Shown here piece after piece: positions 37,327-62,049 of a DNA stretch of 64,000 nt (within the stretch, counting starts at the first letter, position 1; the number at the start of each line of letters is the position of its first letter). Position numbers and translations under genes: made by a program. The notes under the pieces are model-generated. The model was not told the origin of the DNA and did not search any database. It saw only the letters and a program-made list of their open reading frames with translations. This stretch comes from Bradyrhizobium sp. 1 (GTDB taxonomy: Bacteria > Pseudomonadota > Alphaproteobacteria > Rhizobiales > Xanthobacteraceae): assembly GCF_023073315.1 (NCBI RefSeq), contig NZ_JADPJH010000018.1, positions 115,146-179,145 on the forward strand, read 5' to 3'.

Positions 37327-37402
37327 GGCCCGGTGGCGGAAGCGTCTACGCGAGAGCAGTGCATCGCTCTTCATCCTGGTTCAAATCCAGGCCGGGTCTC
37401 CA
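37327..37402 (+). tRNA. Unusual tRNA-like gene with encoded CCA and 8-nt anticodon loop
   Basis: A 76-nt cloverleaf. The acceptor GGCCCGG/CCGGGTC (one G-U) is followed by T and encoded CCA. The T arm is perfect, with CCTGG/CCAGG and loop TTCAAAT. The D arm has three pairs (GCG/CGC) but its loop lacks the G18G19 pair that normally docks with the T loop. The anticodon stem GAGAGC/GCTCTT closes an 8-base loop, AGTGCATC, instead of 7, so the anticodon cannot be read with certainty (GCA if T is U33, or TGC). It is either a degenerate tRNA or a tRNA-like RNA with another role. A GC-rich imperfect repeat follows to 37.5 kb. Confidence 0.55.
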
Positions 37403-54523: not shown

Positions 54524-54623
54524 GATCTTTTTCGCCCGGCTTGGTTTTCCATGAACGCCTTTTGGCTCGCTACCGATAGCGCATTGCGAACCGGGGAGCT
54601 ACGGGGACAGTGTCACCGCAATC

Positions 54624-54947
54624 CTAGTTGAGCGAATTCGCGTCATAAAGGTAGCCTTCAATGCACATCTTGATAGATCCGCCACGAACAAAAATATAGG
54701 CATCCGGTCTATAGGCATATTCGTAATTGTACTCTGCACAACGTACGCCGGTGTTGTCATCGAACACTAAGATGCGCCCATAGGTGCAACCTGAAAATCC
54801 ATCTTCGCGCTTGCCGTCATCGATGTGGGCGACGACCGTTTTAGCGGCTACCAAGGTATACCCGATCACCCGCTCCAATTTGCATTGTGCAGCGACAGAC
54901 TCTGTAATGGTCAGAAGGAAGTACGCAGAAATAATCAGATAACGCAC
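54624..54947 (-). CDS. Small exported protein of unknown function
   Basis: A 107-residue protein. A signal peptide (VRYLIISAYFLLTITESVAA) is followed by CKLERVIGYTLVAAKTVVAHID and further Cys in SGCTYG, VRCAEY and IKMCIEG, suggesting disulfides. The start is GTG with GGAGG upstream. GC content is visibly lower than in the preceding genes, a sign of transfer. An imperfect 20-base direct repeat lies on either side of this gene. Confidence 0.6.
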   Translation of the reverse strand: MRYLIISAYFLLTITESVAAQCKLERVIGYTLVAAKTVVAHIDDGKREDGFSGCTYGRILVFDDNTGVRCAEYNYEYAYRPDAYIFVRGGSIKMCIEGYLYDANSLN

Positions 54948-55156
54948 AGCCCCTCCATATCTCCAGTGGGCATCTTGCACGATCGGTAAGCTGTGAGAAA
55001 CAGGCAGGCCTTGAACACACCTGTAAGCTGCCTATGTTCTGCACCCGATGTAGAGACCCAAGTAAGAAATTTTAAAACGCGTCGCGGATTGTCACCGTAA
55101 TTCTGTTGGTAGCGATGCCGACCGGCGCAACAACGGGGAAACTCATTCCATTGAGC

Positions 55157-55876
55157 TTATTGCTTCGCTTTCGTATCTTCGATGTCTGCAACAGTAGCGA
55201 AGATTGCATCGACGAGACGCGTTGCGCTAGAGGTTTGGCGAGCCAACGCCCTGATCTGCTCACGGCATGGCACGCTTTCACTTTTGTGCGGATAATTGAT
55301 GGTGTGATCAACCTCGCCCCAAACCTCCTCCATCAACGTTCTCACCTGGATTTCGCAGGTCACTGTCGTGCGTGACTGCGAGGCAACTACATAATGAACG
55401 CTGGTGTACATATTTTCGCTACTCTGGGTCTCGATACCAACCGACTTAAAGTAAGATCGGTATTCGTCGTCCCATGTTCGCGCGGACGGGCCCTCTTTCA
55501 TCTCAATGCCCTGCTCATCAATCAAGGCTTTGAGCGCTTTGTTGATCTGATCGATCTGCGTAGTGTGAAGATGTAAAATTCGAATTCCTGCGAGATCATT
55601 CACGCGAAGAAAAAGATTCTCCTTGGAAATGTCGAACTGCATGCCTTTCAGTTTCGCATCTCTGATTTTCCTTTGCAGCTTATCACGAAGATGGCCAGGA
55701 TCCTTCATCCTAGAGCGTATCGAATGCGCAAATCTTCGAAGCTCGCTAGATTCGTCCATGTAACCCAGCATTGACTTCATAAACATGGCCACCAGACTGC
55801 GATGCGCTGCATAGTGCGCAACCAGCTCTTCAACGAGGGCGCTCTCTGCTTCAGACAGATCGTCAGCCGCGTCCAT
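55157..55876 (-). CDS. RelA/SpoT-domain small alarmone synthetase-like protein
   Basis: A 239-residue single-domain RelA/SpoT-type nucleotidyltransferase. Synthetase motifs are R56-M-K58-xxx-H62-L-x-x-K66 (basic substrate loop), catalytic Asp94 in NDLAGIRI, MYTSVHYVV, and EIQVRT with E175, then WGEVDH. There is no hydrolase HD domain and no TGS/ACT regulation. Expected activity is (p)ppGpp, pppApp or another alarmone or tRNA-pyrophosphorylation reaction, as in toxic small alarmone synthetases. It begins 2 bases after the ParA-type gene's stop and is the last gene of a tight three-gene unit, which has no obvious antitoxin gene beyond its two partners. Confidence 0.88.
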   Translation of the reverse strand: MDAADDLSEAESALVEELVAHYAAHRSLVAMFMKSMLGYMDESSELRRFAHSIRSRMKDPGHLRDKLQRKIRDAKLKGMQFDISKENLFLRVNDLAGIRILHLHTTQIDQINKALKALIDEQGIEMKEGPSARTWDDEYRSYFKSVGIETQSSENMYTSVHYVVASQSRTTVTCEIQVRTLMEEVWGEVDHTINYPHKSESVPCREQIRALARQTSSATRLVDAIFATVADIEDTKAKQ

Positions 55877-55878
55877 GG

Positions 55879-56883
55879 TTATCCGGCCTGCTTGATAATT
55901 CTCTTGGCAATATCGCGAAATGCTGCCTTTGCGACAGCACGCTGCTCGGGATTTCCCGCCGATTTAACGGAATAGATGGGGACGCCTTCTGTCTGCGATG
56001 CAGCGACCAGAGCTCCGAAGTCCTTCACATCGCCTAGCTTGGCAGGAGCACCGGCGATCCCAATATCGAAATCTTTCAATAGCGCGAGGATGTTCGATTG
56101 AATGTTGGTTTCTAGCAGTGAGAGATATCGGCTTTGATTTTTAACGACCCGCTCTCGATACACGCTGAAGCCTTGCGGGAGATATCCCATGAATTTTGGC
56201 CGGCCTGGCAAGGTGTACATTCCGGCTGGCGCAAGCTCACTGATTATTTGCCACTGCGACATCCATGAATGCAGCGAGCGACCGAGTGTTTTAAGGGCGC
56301 GTACAGAAAACAGATCACAAGCGGCGGGGACTATAAAATAATCGCAGTCGAGTAGGATGATGCGATTGAGCGGGCCGATATTTGGCCCGCTGTCGTAAAA
56401 AACAAAATCGATGCTATGCTCTAAGCAAACGGTGTTGACTAATTCGCTAAGAGCCACAGTGCCCACAAAGCCTCGGCGCTTTCGCTGCAAGCACTCGCGC
56501 CAGAAATCGTTCAGATCCTCTTCAAAATCTGAAACGCGGATATCTCCGGGCAAGAGATATAACTCAGACGATAATTCGATCGGCTCGATAGGTCGGAACG
56601 AACCAGATGCGTCCACGAGCGGCTTTAGTGCAGTCCAAACCGTTCTCCCGTCCAGATCATCGGAATGATCCAAGAGAAAGTCGAGATACTCGCCATCGAT
56701 AACGTATGCGGAAAGATTGCACTGAGGATCAGAGTCTACGAGAAGCACCTTCTTACCAAGCTCGGCAAGTTGCGCTGCAATGTTGTAAGTAAGGGTAGTT
56801 TTCCCAACGCCGCCTTTATGATTAAAGACAGTGATGCGCTTAGCCGGCGCACGCTTCATTGCGGCAGCAGCGCTGTCACTCAT
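55879..56883 (-). CDS. ParA/CobQ-type deviant Walker A ATPase
   Basis: A 334-residue ATPase. Deviant Walker A FNHKGGVGKTTLTYN (residues 20-35) has the signature Lys; LLVDSDPQCNLSAYV is the A' motif and FVFYDSGPNIGPLNR the Walker B region. The C-terminal half (SRYLSLLETNIQSNILALLK...) is helical. No ParB or centromere-like site is nearby. It overlaps the upstream gene by 4 bases and the alarmone synthetase gene starts 2 bases later, so the three are translationally coupled. It may localise, inhibit or activate the synthetase; that is an inference from context. Confidence 0.88.
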   Translation of the reverse strand: MSDSAAAAMKRAPAKRITVFNHKGGVGKTTLTYNIAAQLAELGKKVLLVDSDPQCNLSAYVIDGEYLDFLLDHSDDLDGRTVWTALKPLVDASGSFRPIEPIELSSELYLLPGDIRVSDFEEDLNDFWRECLQRKRRGFVGTVALSELVNTVCLEHSIDFVFYDSGPNIGPLNRIILLDCDYFIVPAACDLFSVRALKTLGRSLHSWMSQWQIISELAPAGMYTLPGRPKFMGYLPQGFSVYRERVVKNQSRYLSLLETNIQSNILALLKDFDIGIAGAPAKLGDVKDFGALVAASQTEGVPIYSVKSAGNPEQRAVAKAAFRDIAKRIIKQAG

Positions 56884-57458
56884 TCGGCTTTCTTTCGTCG
56901 CGCCGACTTACGCCGCGCAGAAGTCATAGCGTTTCTAGCAGCTTCGCGATCAGGAAGCGCCATTACGAAAAGTTCTCCCGGCGCGCTTAGCTGTCGAGTG
57001 TTCTTGGTTGCGGCCACCAAATATCCGGCGTTCAAGGCATTGTTGGCCGCGTAGGATGTATTCGAGAATTTCGGCTGGGCCGCTTCGGTGTTGAGTTGCG
57101 CGAGGTCAAGCGTAGTGAAATGCGGTGTATCCCGAAAATGAGTGAGGTAGTACGCCAAGCACGCTACCCTCTCGACGTCTGTTTGAGGCCGCTTCTCAAA
57201 AAGAAACTGTTTGGGCGAAGGGTCCAATTTTTGAGAGAAGGACGGACGCTGTGGCGTGTGACTTGGGACCGGATTTTGCGTGGCTTCCGGCCTGCTCGAA
57301 TAATGATGGGATCTGTCCTCTTCCACGGCATTCGAGCCGAAGAATGTGGAAACAGATTTCAGCACTCGGGCGCGCGAGGCCTCGTCCAATCGGCTCAACA
57401 CTTCGATTATCTTGCCGAGAGCTTGCGCGGCAGATGTGCCGTTATCATCATCATCCAT
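56880..57458 (-). CDS. Unknown protein, first gene of the ParA/alarmone-synthetase cassette
   Basis: A 192-residue protein: a helical N-terminal segment (AAQALGKIIEVLSRLDEASRAR), a Ser/Pro-rich linker (residues 55-85), and a compact C-terminal domain starting TDVERVACLAYYLTHFRDT and ending in a Lys/Arg-rich tail (ARRKSARRKKAE). The C-terminal domain has a winged-helix-like order of helices and strands and may bind nucleic acid. I do not recognise a named family. It is the first gene of the operon, with a palindromic site upstream. Confidence 0.75.
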   Translation of the reverse strand: MDDDDNGTSAAQALGKIIEVLSRLDEASRARVLKSVSTFFGSNAVEEDRSHHYSSRPEATQNPVPSHTPQRPSFSQKLDPSPKQFLFEKRPQTDVERVACLAYYLTHFRDTPHFTTLDLAQLNTEAAQPKFSNTSYAANNALNAGYLVAATKNTRQLSAPGELFVMALPDREAARNAMTSARRKSARRKKAE

Positions 57459-57515
57459 AAGTCAATACCTTGGGGAACCGCGTCAACCTTGCAAAACTAC
57501 AAGTGGTTGGCAAGT

Positions 57516-57546
57516 CGTGCGCACTTTCGCGCTGAAGTTGCGCACG
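57516..57546. promoter_or_regulatory. Inverted repeat upstream of the cassette
   Basis: CGTGCGCA and TGCGCACG, perfect 8-base arms separated by 15 bases. It lies 58 bases before the first gene and could be an operator for a DNA-binding cassette product. The promoter itself is not clear. Confidence 0.5.
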
Positions 57547-57623
57547 CAAATCGTCGGTGGCTAACCAGGGCGGGTACCAAACGCGATCGCACAAGTAGAG
57601 CAGCACTAAATGCTTGAAATCAC

Positions 57624-57668
57624 TGGTACAGTTGGGTGGGCTCGAACCACCGACCTCCTGTTCCACAG
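57624..57668 (-). other. 3' fragment of a tRNA-His-like gene (probable attachment site)
   Basis: 45 bases match the 3' half of a tRNA: anticodon loop CTGTGGA (anticodon GTG), stem half ACAGG, variable AGGTC, perfect T arm GGTGG/CCACC with loop TTCGAGC, acceptor half CAACTGT, A73 and CCA. The 5' half is missing; the adjoining right-hand sequence does not pair. A73 agrees with alphaproteobacterial tRNA-His. Such fragments form when an element integrates in a tRNA 3' end. The tyrosine integrase gene starts 190 bases to the right. Confidence 0.7.
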
Positions 57669-57861: not shown

Positions 57862-59175
57862 GTGAGTGAGCAGTCAGGACAGAAGAAACGACAGAAGGAA
57901 AACAGGAAACACCGTCTGAGCGACACCTGGATCGCGCGTCATAAGCTCACCCTGCCACAGGAAGATTGGTTCGATATCGTGCGGCCGGAGCTCATCCTGC
58001 GCATGTCGTACGGGGGCGCGAAAACCTTCCGCGTCCGACACAAGGTCGGCAGCAAGACTCGGACGTTCAAGCTGGGCCGTTGGCATCCTGAGACGTTCAA
58101 CGTTGATGCTGCGAGGAAGGCGGCCAAGACGTTCAAGCCAGCGCCATCCATCTCGACGGACGGAATGACCGAGGATCAGGCTTGGTGGCTGTCCGCGACA
58201 TTCGCCGACGTCATCGAGAAATACATATCAGAGGTTGTCTCGACCTTCCGGACGGCCTCGGAGACGGAACGCTGCTACCGACGCTACGTCATCCCCAAGC
58301 TGGGCAAGACCACCTTCGTCGACCTCAAGAAGACCGACGCGGGCCTGCTGCGACGCACAATGCGGACAGAGAACGGGCCGCGGCAAGCCGACATCATTTT
58401 CGCATTGATCCGATCGATCTGTTTTTGGGTCGAGGACGAAGAGGTCATCGACGGATACGAAAGCCCGCTCCGCTACCGTCCAAAGCGCAGGGGCAAGAAT
58501 AAGCGTCGCGGCGGAGGCCGCGAGCGCGTCCTCGACGACAATGAACTGCGGATGGTCTGGCGTGCCGCGGAACAGATGGGAGGTCTCTATGGGGGTCTCG
58601 TTCGCCTGCTCCTCCTCACTGGACAGCGTCGCCAATGTCTCGCGACAGCCAAATGGTCCGAGATAGTCGACGGAACTTGGTTCATCCGGGATGAGGGCGA
58701 CGATGCGAAGGGGACGGGCCAAATCCTGCGGCTGCCTCCCCTCGCCCTCCAAATCCTCAACGCGCTGCCGCGGATCAAGGGCAACCCTTACGTCTTCGGT
58801 GTTGAGGACAAGGGCGAGCACAAGCCGTTCAACAGCTTCTCCCAGCGGAAGGACGAGATTTTAGAATTGCTGCCCCGACCAATCCCACGATGGACCTTGC
58901 ATGATCTGCGACGGACCGCCCGCACGCGATTGGAGGACATCGGCATTGAGATGCAGACGGGCGAAGTCGTGATCGGGCACGCGCTGCCGGGCGTGAAGCG
59001 CATCTATATCCGCTCCAAGTTTGAGGAGAAGCGCGCGGACGCCCTCGTACGCCTCGCGACGCACATTGCCGACGTTGTCGGATTGTCCCCAGATCAGGGC
59101 GGGACGCCTCCCGCAGTGTCCCACACCACGACATCCGGAAACGTTGTCCCGATCCGGCGCACGCGGCGCGCATGA
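57862..59175 (+). CDS. Tyrosine-type site-specific integrase
   Basis: A 437-residue recombinase. The N-terminal arm-binding domain is followed by a core-binding SAM-like domain (about 110-210) and the catalytic domain. Catalytic residues are Arg in LLLLTGQRRQC, HxLR in TLHDLRRTAR, a His in IGHALPGV and the nucleophile Tyr in VKRIYIRSKF. The start is GTG. Adjacency to a truncated tRNA fragment marks it as the integrase of a genomic island or prophage entering at a tRNA-His 3' end. It is more distant from phage P4-type integrases in its C-terminal tail. Confidence 0.92.
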   Translation: MSEQSGQKKRQKENRKHRLSDTWIARHKLTLPQEDWFDIVRPELILRMSYGGAKTFRVRHKVGSKTRTFKLGRWHPETFNVDAARKAAKTFKPAPSISTDGMTEDQAWWLSATFADVIEKYISEVVSTFRTASETERCYRRYVIPKLGKTTFVDLKKTDAGLLRRTMRTENGPRQADIIFALIRSICFWVEDEEVIDGYESPLRYRPKRRGKNKRRGGGRERVLDDNELRMVWRAAEQMGGLYGGLVRLLLLTGQRRQCLATAKWSEIVDGTWFIRDEGDDAKGTGQILRLPPLALQILNALPRIKGNPYVFGVEDKGEHKPFNSFSQRKDEILELLPRPIPRWTLHDLRRTARTRLEDIGIEMQTGEVVIGHALPGVKRIYIRSKFEEKRADALVRLATHIADVVGLSPDQGGTPPAVSHTTTSGNVVPIRRTRRA

Positions 59176-60919: not shown

Positions 60920-61969
60920 TCAAGCGCCCTTTTTTGCGGGGCGCTTCCTCGCAGATTTCTTGACCGCCTTCTTCGCCGTCTTCTTTTTCGGCCTCGGCCG
61001 GGGCAGCGCCAATTGTCCTTGCTGAGGGGCCGGCGTGAAATCGATCACCTGAACGATCTTGTGGTGTGGTTCGGCGCCCGGCTTGTCGGGCGGCGTGACT
61101 TCCATTCGCACGCGGTACCGGTCATTTGTGAATGCCCCTCCGCGCTTTAATGCGTCGGTCGCGATCGACGTTTCCGAGATATCGACATAGATGTGTTGCT
61201 GCTTCTTTTTGCTGCGACCGTATGCGAAGCGCCAGCGCTTAGCCTTTTCGTCGTACACCGGAGAGTAAACATATAGCGTGGCAACAACCGTCTCGGGCGC
61301 TGCATGCTCCAGCTGCTGTTCGACTGTCTCAGTGTCGGGAGCGTCGCACGCAAGCTCGATATCTCGGATTTCTTCTTTCTCCAGCGAAACCACCGGCTGA
61401 TCCGCGTCCTTAAATTCGATCCGCTTTGCTTCATTCATATCGACTGGCGTGAGCGTTTCCTTGATGGCCTCCAAAACGCGTCGATTTTCGGCGAGCTTCA
61501 GCACCTCGGGGGAAATGTTGATTGTGTTGTCGTTACCGATGATCTGGATCGTTAGGAGACCCGGCGTCTCGGGCTTTTCGACCTTGGCAACTGGCCTATC
61601 TTTTTTCCATTTGAGATAGTCGAGGAGCGTTGCGAAGCCAGCACTCCTGATTACCCCAATGAATTGGAGCAATTCCTTGGCAGTTTTGACACGGTCATCC
61701 TGCAAGAGAGTCTTGGCTTTTTCAAAGATGTTCTGAAAGAGCTCGAAGTTGATATGGAAGCACTTGTGCTCAAAATCGGACGAGACGACCAGCTTGATCT
61801 TGGCACTATCACCGTTGAGCGATGCGTTTGCTTCCCGGACAAGACGTCCAAATCCTAGCAGTGCTGGGGCGAGCGCTTCCACATCGAGGGAGTGGTCGTC
61901 TGGATCGTCACTGTAGTAAGCCACTTGAAACGCTTCGCGACGATGATCGTCGCCAGCCCCATCCGACAT
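60920..61969 (-). CDS. Unknown island protein with H1-like basic tail
   Basis: A 349-residue protein. The N-terminal signature SLDVEALAPALLGFGRLVREAN resembles an uncharacterised family found in phage and accessory DNA (pattern D-V-x-x-LAP-x-LL). A helical region includes FELFQNIFEKAKTLLQ, a beta-rich middle domain carries RYRVRMEVTPP, and the last 30 residues are a Lys/Ala/Arg tail (KKKTAKKAVKKSARKR) like histone H1. GGGGAG lies 8 bases before the ATG. It may bind DNA or RNA through the tail. Function unknown. Confidence 0.7.
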   Translation of the reverse strand: MSDGAGDDHRREAFQVAYYSDDPDDHSLDVEALAPALLGFGRLVREANASLNGDSAKIKLVVSSDFEHKCFHINFELFQNIFEKAKTLLQDDRVKTAKELLQFIGVIRSAGFATLLDYLKWKKDRPVAKVEKPETPGLLTIQIIGNDNTINISPEVLKLAENRRVLEAIKETLTPVDMNEAKRIEFKDADQPVVSLEKEEIRDIELACDAPDTETVEQQLEHAAPETVVATLYVYSPVYDEKAKRWRFAYGRSKKKQQHIYVDISETSIATDALKRGGAFTNDRYRVRMEVTPPDKPGAEPHHKIVQVIDFTPAPQQGQLALPRPRPKKKTAKKAVKKSARKRPAKKGA

Positions 61970-62049
61970 GCCCGAAGCTCCCCAAATCTGCGGCGTCCAC
62001 ACTAACTCGTTTCGAGGGTCTCTACCTCATGTTGCGTTGCAAGCAGCGG

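Follow-up and report, generated by a model that had tools for sequence, protein, structure and literature searches.

Why should a ParA-type ATPase be encoded next to a lone alarmone synthetase? This question is raised by a three-gene cassette at positions 55,157 to 57,458 of a 64,000-nucleotide stretch of the Bradyrhizobium sp. 1 genome (RefSeq assembly GCF_023073315.1, contig NZ_JADPJH010000018.1), the whole of which is called the window below. The cassette encodes a protein of no named family (gene A), the ATPase (ParA) and a small alarmone synthetase (SAS). In a preliminary description, the ATPase was suspected to be a switch over an alarmone toxin. The answer developed here, to which we would give about an even chance, is a growth-arrest module with exchangeable parts, of which the cassette would be one version: ParA would be its sensor and switch, and a RelQ/RelP-like SAS, predicted to make (p)ppGpp, its effector.

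ParA and SAS form a conserved pair

The three open reading frames (ORFs) were confirmed on the minus strand, packed as first described. Gene A and ParA overlap by 4 nucleotides (nt), and ParA is followed by SAS after a gap of 2 nt, making one operon-like unit (Table 1). ParA belongs to the Pfam family AAA_31 (E-value 1.3e-26), and its nearest sequence in PDB is 3pg5 (2.6e-33), deposited as 'Uncharacterized protein'. In SAS, Pfam recognizes RelA_SpoT alone (PF04607, 9.3e-18), in agreement with the earlier observation that the hydrolase domain is missing.

To follow the synthetase through other genomes, one genome per species was scanned with an alignment of four SAS as the query, ParA not being used. 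Sixty-eight loci were kept, and in 55 of them a ParA gene stands just upstream on the same strand. Because this arrangement recurs among loci found with SAS alone, chance adjacency of the two genes was rejected, and the association seen in the window is a conserved one. By record title the 55 loci span 15 phyla, although many of them are metagenome-assembled and single phylum labels may therefore be wrong. The 13 loci without ParA consist of four SAS fragments of 83 to 114 amino acids (aa), two of them at contig ends, and nine longer SAS of another subfamily, which carry R, not W, at position 135. The preliminary description had allowed that such synthetases might occur mostly without the ATPase; in the set examined, there is no full-length SAS of the window subfamily without ParA.

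The deviant Walker A motif (KGGVGKTT or KGGVGKST) is present in 61 of 65 ParA-SAS rows, the other four being truncated before the motif. Among 62 pairs of mechanically called ORFs for which the distance was measured, 52 have ParA and SAS spaced by -50 to +60 nt, and the others by -212 to 740 nt. ParA and SAS co-diverge: their pairwise identities are correlated with r of 0.752 (n = 58), the highest value among 2000 permutations being 0.142. In the host order, SAS was found in 2 of 397 genomes, the window genome included, and is thus rare and patchy there.

No shared gene was seen by eye upstream of ParA in 30 loci, nearly all of the two-gene form. Two single loci (numbered here with the prefix L) have pairs of their own upstream of ParA-SAS, as judged by eye: an AAA ATPase with a DUF4435-like protein in L079, and an AAA with an HNH-like protein in L055. 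One of the four SAS fragments, at L067:5882-6264, belongs to a decayed cassette that retains a ParA remnant: sequence matching ParA residues 1 to 46 directly adjoins the last third of SAS, in another frame. The spirochaete SAS without ParA (L068-L072, L074 and L075; 370-469 aa) have R at the position of W135 and share H-L after the R-x-K of the ATP site.

The synthetase is intact and resembles RelQ and RelP

Residues D94, R99, Y157, H161, E175 and Q177 are invariant in all 62 ParA-linked SAS aligned, and R56 and K58 are kept in 61 of them, the remaining row being gapped. The alignment omits SAS ORFs shorter than 170 aa (L028, L062, L063, L065 and L067) and duplicates (L001, L002, L007, L008 and L082). 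In our own reading, the active-site residues appear to correspond to D90, R95, Y128, E145 and Q147 of FaRel2, as named in PMC11782079. On this reading, the ParA-linked SAS keep the conserved synthetase residues expected of toxic SAS (toxSAS). Loss of such residues, initially raised as a possibility, was not seen among them, and a decayed synthetase was rejected on account of the invariant active site. Position 135 separates the subfamilies cleanly, with W in 62 of 62 ParA-linked SAS and R in 11 of 11 others.

Comparison with known structures may provide some clues regarding the product. A profile of 38 SAS matched RelP and RelQ chains in PDB (E-values 7e-11 to 8e-9), and CapRel chains were absent from its matches up to an E-value of 10; as a control, a CapRel-like protein matched CapRel at 2.6e-34 in the same library. 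The AlphaFold model of the window SAS, made from a 37-row alignment, has a predicted local distance difference test score (pLDDT) of 95.4. Its nearest structure is RelQ (Z-score 18.5, 2.2 Å over 180 residues), followed by RelP (16.7), the exported SaEAS (13.0), CapRel (11.9), Tas1 (9.7) and FaRel2 (7.1). Sequence and predicted fold alike point to kinship with RelQ/RelP and not with the toxic, adenine-specific SAS. The early suggestion of a tRNA-tagging toxSAS is therefore not supported: the enzyme looks more like the (p)ppGpp makers RelQ and RelP, and (p)ppGpp is its predicted product. Exported (p)ppGpp-only SAS have been reported to inhibit growth when placed in the cytoplasm (PMC12691689).

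One locus brings a different synthetase close to this ParA family. At L112:4867-7772, a CapRel-like synthetase (PDB match at 2.6e-34), a ParA of the family divergent from it and a Panacea-like gene (by eye) stand side by side.

The same ParA family has other partners

Viral contigs were scanned with three ParA alignments, the first two lists being limited to the best 80 of 118 and the best 80 of 177 matches. With ParA cores shorter than 230 aa or below 150 bits left out, the scans were reduced to 120 unique ParA proteins, one of which (L084) is a genome locus. A downstream gene lies at -80 to +60 nt in 57 of the 120; in two cases it is an ordinary phage gene, and in 55 it encodes a partner of an effector class. 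These partners are SIR2-like proteins (19), RiboL-PSP HEPN proteins (18), SAS (11), cyclase-like proteins (5) and two proteins without a name, in one of which RNxxxH was noticed by eye at the C terminus. Such a range of toxin-type enzymes beside one ATPase family is what would be expected if ParA is the controller.

The main classes hold up in those proteins that were tested. Pfam found SIR2_2 in all six SIR2-like proteins tested (five from the set of 19, plus one from a plasmid) and HEPN_RiboL-PSP in all five HEPN proteins tested (four from the set of 18, plus one from a plasmid). RiboL-PSP was the best match of the HEPN partners tested, with weak MAE_28990/MAE_18760-like matches in two, and the motif RR[NH]xIxH is kept in 18 of 18, that of L152 (RRHKIVH) being read by eye. 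Four of the five cyclase-like partners share the motifs F-[LVI]-D-[IL]-L-G-F and FSDS; the label itself is our assumption, taken from these two motifs, and neither Pfam (four proteins tested) nor PADLOC (two tested) returned a match.

A tree of 125 ParA was built, which predates the last two viral-contig scans. In it the partner types follow the clades, with 11 changes against a mean of 68.6 after shuffling and a count as low in none of 200 shuffles. This suggests that partners change rarely. The HEPN partners belong to other ParA clades than the SAS partners. Deep placements are uncertain owing to a long-branch warning. Similar pairs are found in phages and plasmids. In Pseudomonas phage Pf1 (AY324828; L167:6052-6579), an unannotated HEPN-type ORF overlaps a Soj/ParA-like gene by 8 nt. 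A ParA-HEPN pair is present on a Burkholderia glumae plasmid, and ParA and SIR2 family proteins overlap by 4 nt on the Salmonella Infantis plasmid NZ_CP148876 (L171:3998-5916), where a DNA methyltransferase adjoins the pair. Salmonella phage ST160 and a Pantoea plasmid carry a ParA of the family without a close partner.

Gene A belongs to one branch

According to the preliminary description, synthetase homologues that mostly lack the first gene would speak against its reading of the cassette, and this is the pattern seen for gene A. Gene A is present in 23 of the 55 ParA-SAS genome loci and was not seen in the other 32, five of which (L020, L035, L043, L057 and L060) have a contig end at most 650 nt upstream of ParA. 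The conserved unit is therefore ParA-SAS, and the three-gene form was rejected as the unit. In the ParA tree, the rows with gene A make up one clade, its sole other member being L020, cut at a contig end. Among 398 genomes of the phylum, with at most eight candidates scored per genome, gene A turned up in the window genome and in a single relative.

Neither Pfam nor PADLOC nor NCBIfam assigns gene A to a family, and Pfam likewise gave none for 21 of its relatives; there is a weak PHROG match (E-value 0.03), and its sequence gave short matches only in PDB, several to designed proteins. The predicted structure has a mean pLDDT of 82.2, with residues 81-180 above 95. Foldseek returned no match to it at an E-value below 0.001. 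A second structural aligner matched residues 87-173, approximately, to an unnamed structure (Z-score 9.4), TOP3B (8.9) and then the MntR, MarR-type, IdeR and PadR regulators, tied near 8. Since these matches are of the winged-helix type, the modelled fold is likely a winged helix, and in its one branch gene A may act as an autoregulator or as a DNA anchor for ParA.

Cassette layout and genomic site

The cassette lies in DNA of lower G+C content, as first noted: 0.505-0.527 at 55-58 kb, compared with 0.60-0.68 per 1-kb bin to the left of 54 kb, except for one bin of 0.596 and one of 0.598. In five genomes of the same genus, homology to the window ends at 54595-54610, just past a TENA/THI-4 gene. 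Two of the five (L335 and L336) have an intact tRNA-His about 1.0-1.8 kb from this gene; in the other three, none was found within the 10.7 kb read. In the window genome, positions 57624-57664 are a 41-nt exact copy of a segment of the intact tRNA-His (contig C15:185334-185374), which is located 12.6 kb to the right on the same contig, and 46-48 nt at the fragment are identical to the tRNA-His region in two relatives. The homology break, together with the fragment and the intact copy, indicates that the cassette lies in variable DNA where elements integrate at tRNA-His.

Table 1. Features of the cassette and its surroundings (window coordinates)
Feature	Position	Strand	Description
Gene A	57458-56880	-	192 aa; predicted winged-helix domain, N-terminal helical hairpin, basic C-terminal tail
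ParA	56883-55879	-	334 aa; deviant Walker A ATPase (HKGGVGKTT); predicted switch
SAS	55876-55157	-	239 aa; RelA_SpoT synthetase domain alone; predicted effector
Inverted repeat, 13-nt, imperfect	57516-57546	.	57 nt upstream of gene A; possible operator
tRNA-His 3' end, attachment-site repeat	57621-57668	-	Adjoins the cassette
Tyrosine-type integrase	57862-59175	+	In the neighbouring 12.6-kb element, outside the cassette; Pfam Phage_integrase
Variable segment containing the cassette	54610-57668	.	Homology break relative to five same-genus genomes

The tRNA fragment and the integrase had both been described as neighbours of the cassette. The former is indeed the 3' end of tRNA-His. The integrase, whose Pfam match is weak (Phage_integrase, E-value 1.1e-5, just under the curated cut-off), stands on the far side of this fragment and hence is part of the neighbouring element. 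The cassette was accordingly rejected as cargo of that element, being outside its distal repeat. No third attachment repeat was found in the window left of the cassette (18 nt, up to 3 mismatches), an Rfam scan of 54-64 kb gave nothing useful, and promoter and terminator scans stayed at background level. Pfam found no ParB among ten window proteins scanned, and parS was not searched.

Two further features of the window were recorded. Inside the neighbouring tRNA-His element, positions 60920-62002 on the minus strand match both PADLOC PDC-S42 (1.4e-43) and the NCBIfam LAPAL putative phage structural protein (2.6e-39). ARAGORN called a tRNA with a four-base anticodon (tgca) at 37327-37402 on the plus strand.

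Prophage location

The two-gene form, a ParA family protein with a RelA/SpoT protein, occurs in 7 of 5426 Escherichia coli genomes; an E. coli prophage SAS is encoded at L165:6497-7174. The two of these seven loci that were viewed are in P2-like prophages, between the replication endonuclease and portal genes. Rousset et al. (2022, PMC9122126) describe this interval as a hotspot of anti-phage systems and report a putative plasmid partitioning system there in about a fourth of P2-like phages. The word ParA is absent from the main text of that paper, and the pair may still stand in its supplementary tables. The prophage location makes a defence role for the cassette plausible. In PADLOC v2, the cassette has no more than weak or partial matches: SAS to PDC-S33 (1.1e-4), and ParA to PDC-M28B (3.4e-9) over 44 residues.

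Discussion

In the growth-arrest module that we propose, the ParA-type ATPase would be the sensor and switch, and whatever gene is translated after it would be the effector. ParA would cycle between ATP and ADP states, probably bound to DNA, and keep SAS silent. A trigger that disturbs the state of ParA would free SAS, and the (p)ppGpp made by SAS would stop growth. The likeliest triggers would be infection by a phage and the element being lost. Translation coupling may hold ParA and its effector in ratio. The original idea of a ParA switch over an alarmone toxin is carried forward by the conserved pair, the intact active site and the other toxin-type partners, whereas its tRNA-tagging variant is not supported. 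The ParA-HEPN proposal of 2013 (PMC3710099) follows a similar logic, with ParA as the antitoxin.

Several observations weigh against this module. The kinship of SAS to RelQ and RelP is one of them. RelQ/RelP-type synthetases are usually stress enzymes, not toxins. Moreover, no close downstream partner was seen for 63 of the 120 ParA relatives, 7 of which lie at contig ends, and members of the family may therefore serve ParA functions of another kind. PADLOC v2 contains no close model for the ParA-SAS pair and none for gene A. The surroundings of the genome loci were also scanned. A set of 138 of 266 neighbouring ORFs, up to two upstream and one downstream per locus, was taken from 54 of the 55 loci (L061 dropped), leaving aside ORFs of at least 1100 aa and any upstream ORF truncated at the edge of its locus. 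These neighbours matched 155 PADLOC models at 1e-10, with no control set; the 25 models listed are restriction-modification, mads and candidate models, with one or two proteins each, and the common Pfam families are metabolic. A defence-island signal around the genome loci is thus not shown by this uncontrolled scan.

A bolder extension would be a whole family of modular immune systems that share one ParA subfamily and can exchange effectors of at least four kinds, which make alarmones, cut RNA, consume NAD and perhaps cyclize nucleotides. ParA would then stand guard over the nucleoid. As long as it sits on host DNA in its ATP-loaded form, the effector would stay silent, and the effector would fire once a phage strips or degrades the nucleoid. 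We regard this extension as rather doubtful. If it is true, the alarmone branch would be, to our knowledge, the first immune system with (p)ppGpp itself as the growth-stop signal under an ATPase switch.

Other explanations would assign the pair a role in the life of its mobile element. ParA and SAS could together slow host division during excision or transfer, as ParA and Shi of ICEclc do. A brake of this kind would suit a cassette that is found at a tRNA integration locus and in prophages, but the integrase element does not include the window cassette, the E. coli copies viewed sit in a defence hotspot, and a ParA family that also pairs with SIR2 and HEPN proteins looks more defence-like; such a brake seems to us unlikely. 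Partition or addiction is another possibility, in which the element is maintained by ParA, gene A serving as a ParB-like adaptor, and cells that lose the element are punished or slowed by SAS. This would be consistent with the family membership of ParA, the predicted winged-helix domain of gene A and the putative partitioning system known from the same P2-like locus (PMC9122126). However, Pfam gave no ParB among the ten window proteins, and the 30 loci viewed, nearly all two-gene, have no common gene upstream of ParA by eye; we consider partition or addiction improbable.

The remaining alternative has no toxin in it: SAS would be a dedicated stress enzyme that ParA spreads or localizes on the nucleoid for local control of (p)ppGpp. 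The closest structures, RelQ and RelP, agree with this, and other ParA-family ATPases position cargo. Nevertheless, a stress enzyme present in 2 of 397 genomes of the order, at a mobile location and with a ParA whose family also takes HEPN and SIR2 partners, would be unusual, and we consider this alternative very unlikely.

Whichever mechanism applies, two well-studied families, partition ATPases and alarmone synthetases, are joined in a unit of 15 phyla as labelled, and members of one ATPase family are linked to a variety of toxin-type enzymes. Should ParA be the switch of the growth-arrest module, the role of ParA-type ATPases would extend from moving DNA or cargo to controlling growth arrest in general. 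The two-gene form of E. coli P2-like prophages makes the switch question directly testable.

Comparison with known systems

The preliminary description left open whether the association had been described before. The part already known is ParA-HEPN: a dyad of a ParA/Soj-like ATPase and a MAE_18760 HEPN protein was predicted as a toxin-antitoxin system, with ParA as the antitoxin (Anantharaman et al. 2013, PMC3710099). The ParA-SAS pairing is apparently undescribed within the literature searched. In open-access titles and abstract starts, we found no description of ParA-SAS or ParA-SIR2 as a system, and a word search of the RSH superfamily survey PMC3153485 did not return ParA. The window cassette shares with the 2013 dyad the ParA-type ATPase adjoining a toxin-type enzyme on the same strand, and both are predictions. 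It differs in the effector, which is RelA_SpoT instead of a HEPN RNase, and in having gene A in one branch.

Among the synthetases, toxSAS such as FaRel2, CapRel and PhRel are likewise single-domain RelA/SpoT enzymes in small operons with a putative controller. Their known antitoxins are structured neutralizing domains, not ATPases (PMC11782079), and the profile of window-type SAS reaches no CapRel. RelQ and RelP (YjbM/YwaC) are nearest to SAS by sequence and predicted fold, but SAS is operon-bound to ParA and about 20% identical to them. RelQ and RelP are stand-alone stress enzymes.

For ParA, the deviant Walker A ATPase is a component that the cassette shares with ParABS. In ICEclc, a ParA on a mobile element controls host growth (PMC6812849); its partner there is Shi. 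Finally, both E. coli ParA-SAS pairs viewed resemble the systems of the P2-like hotspot (PMC9122126) in their location between the replication and portal genes.

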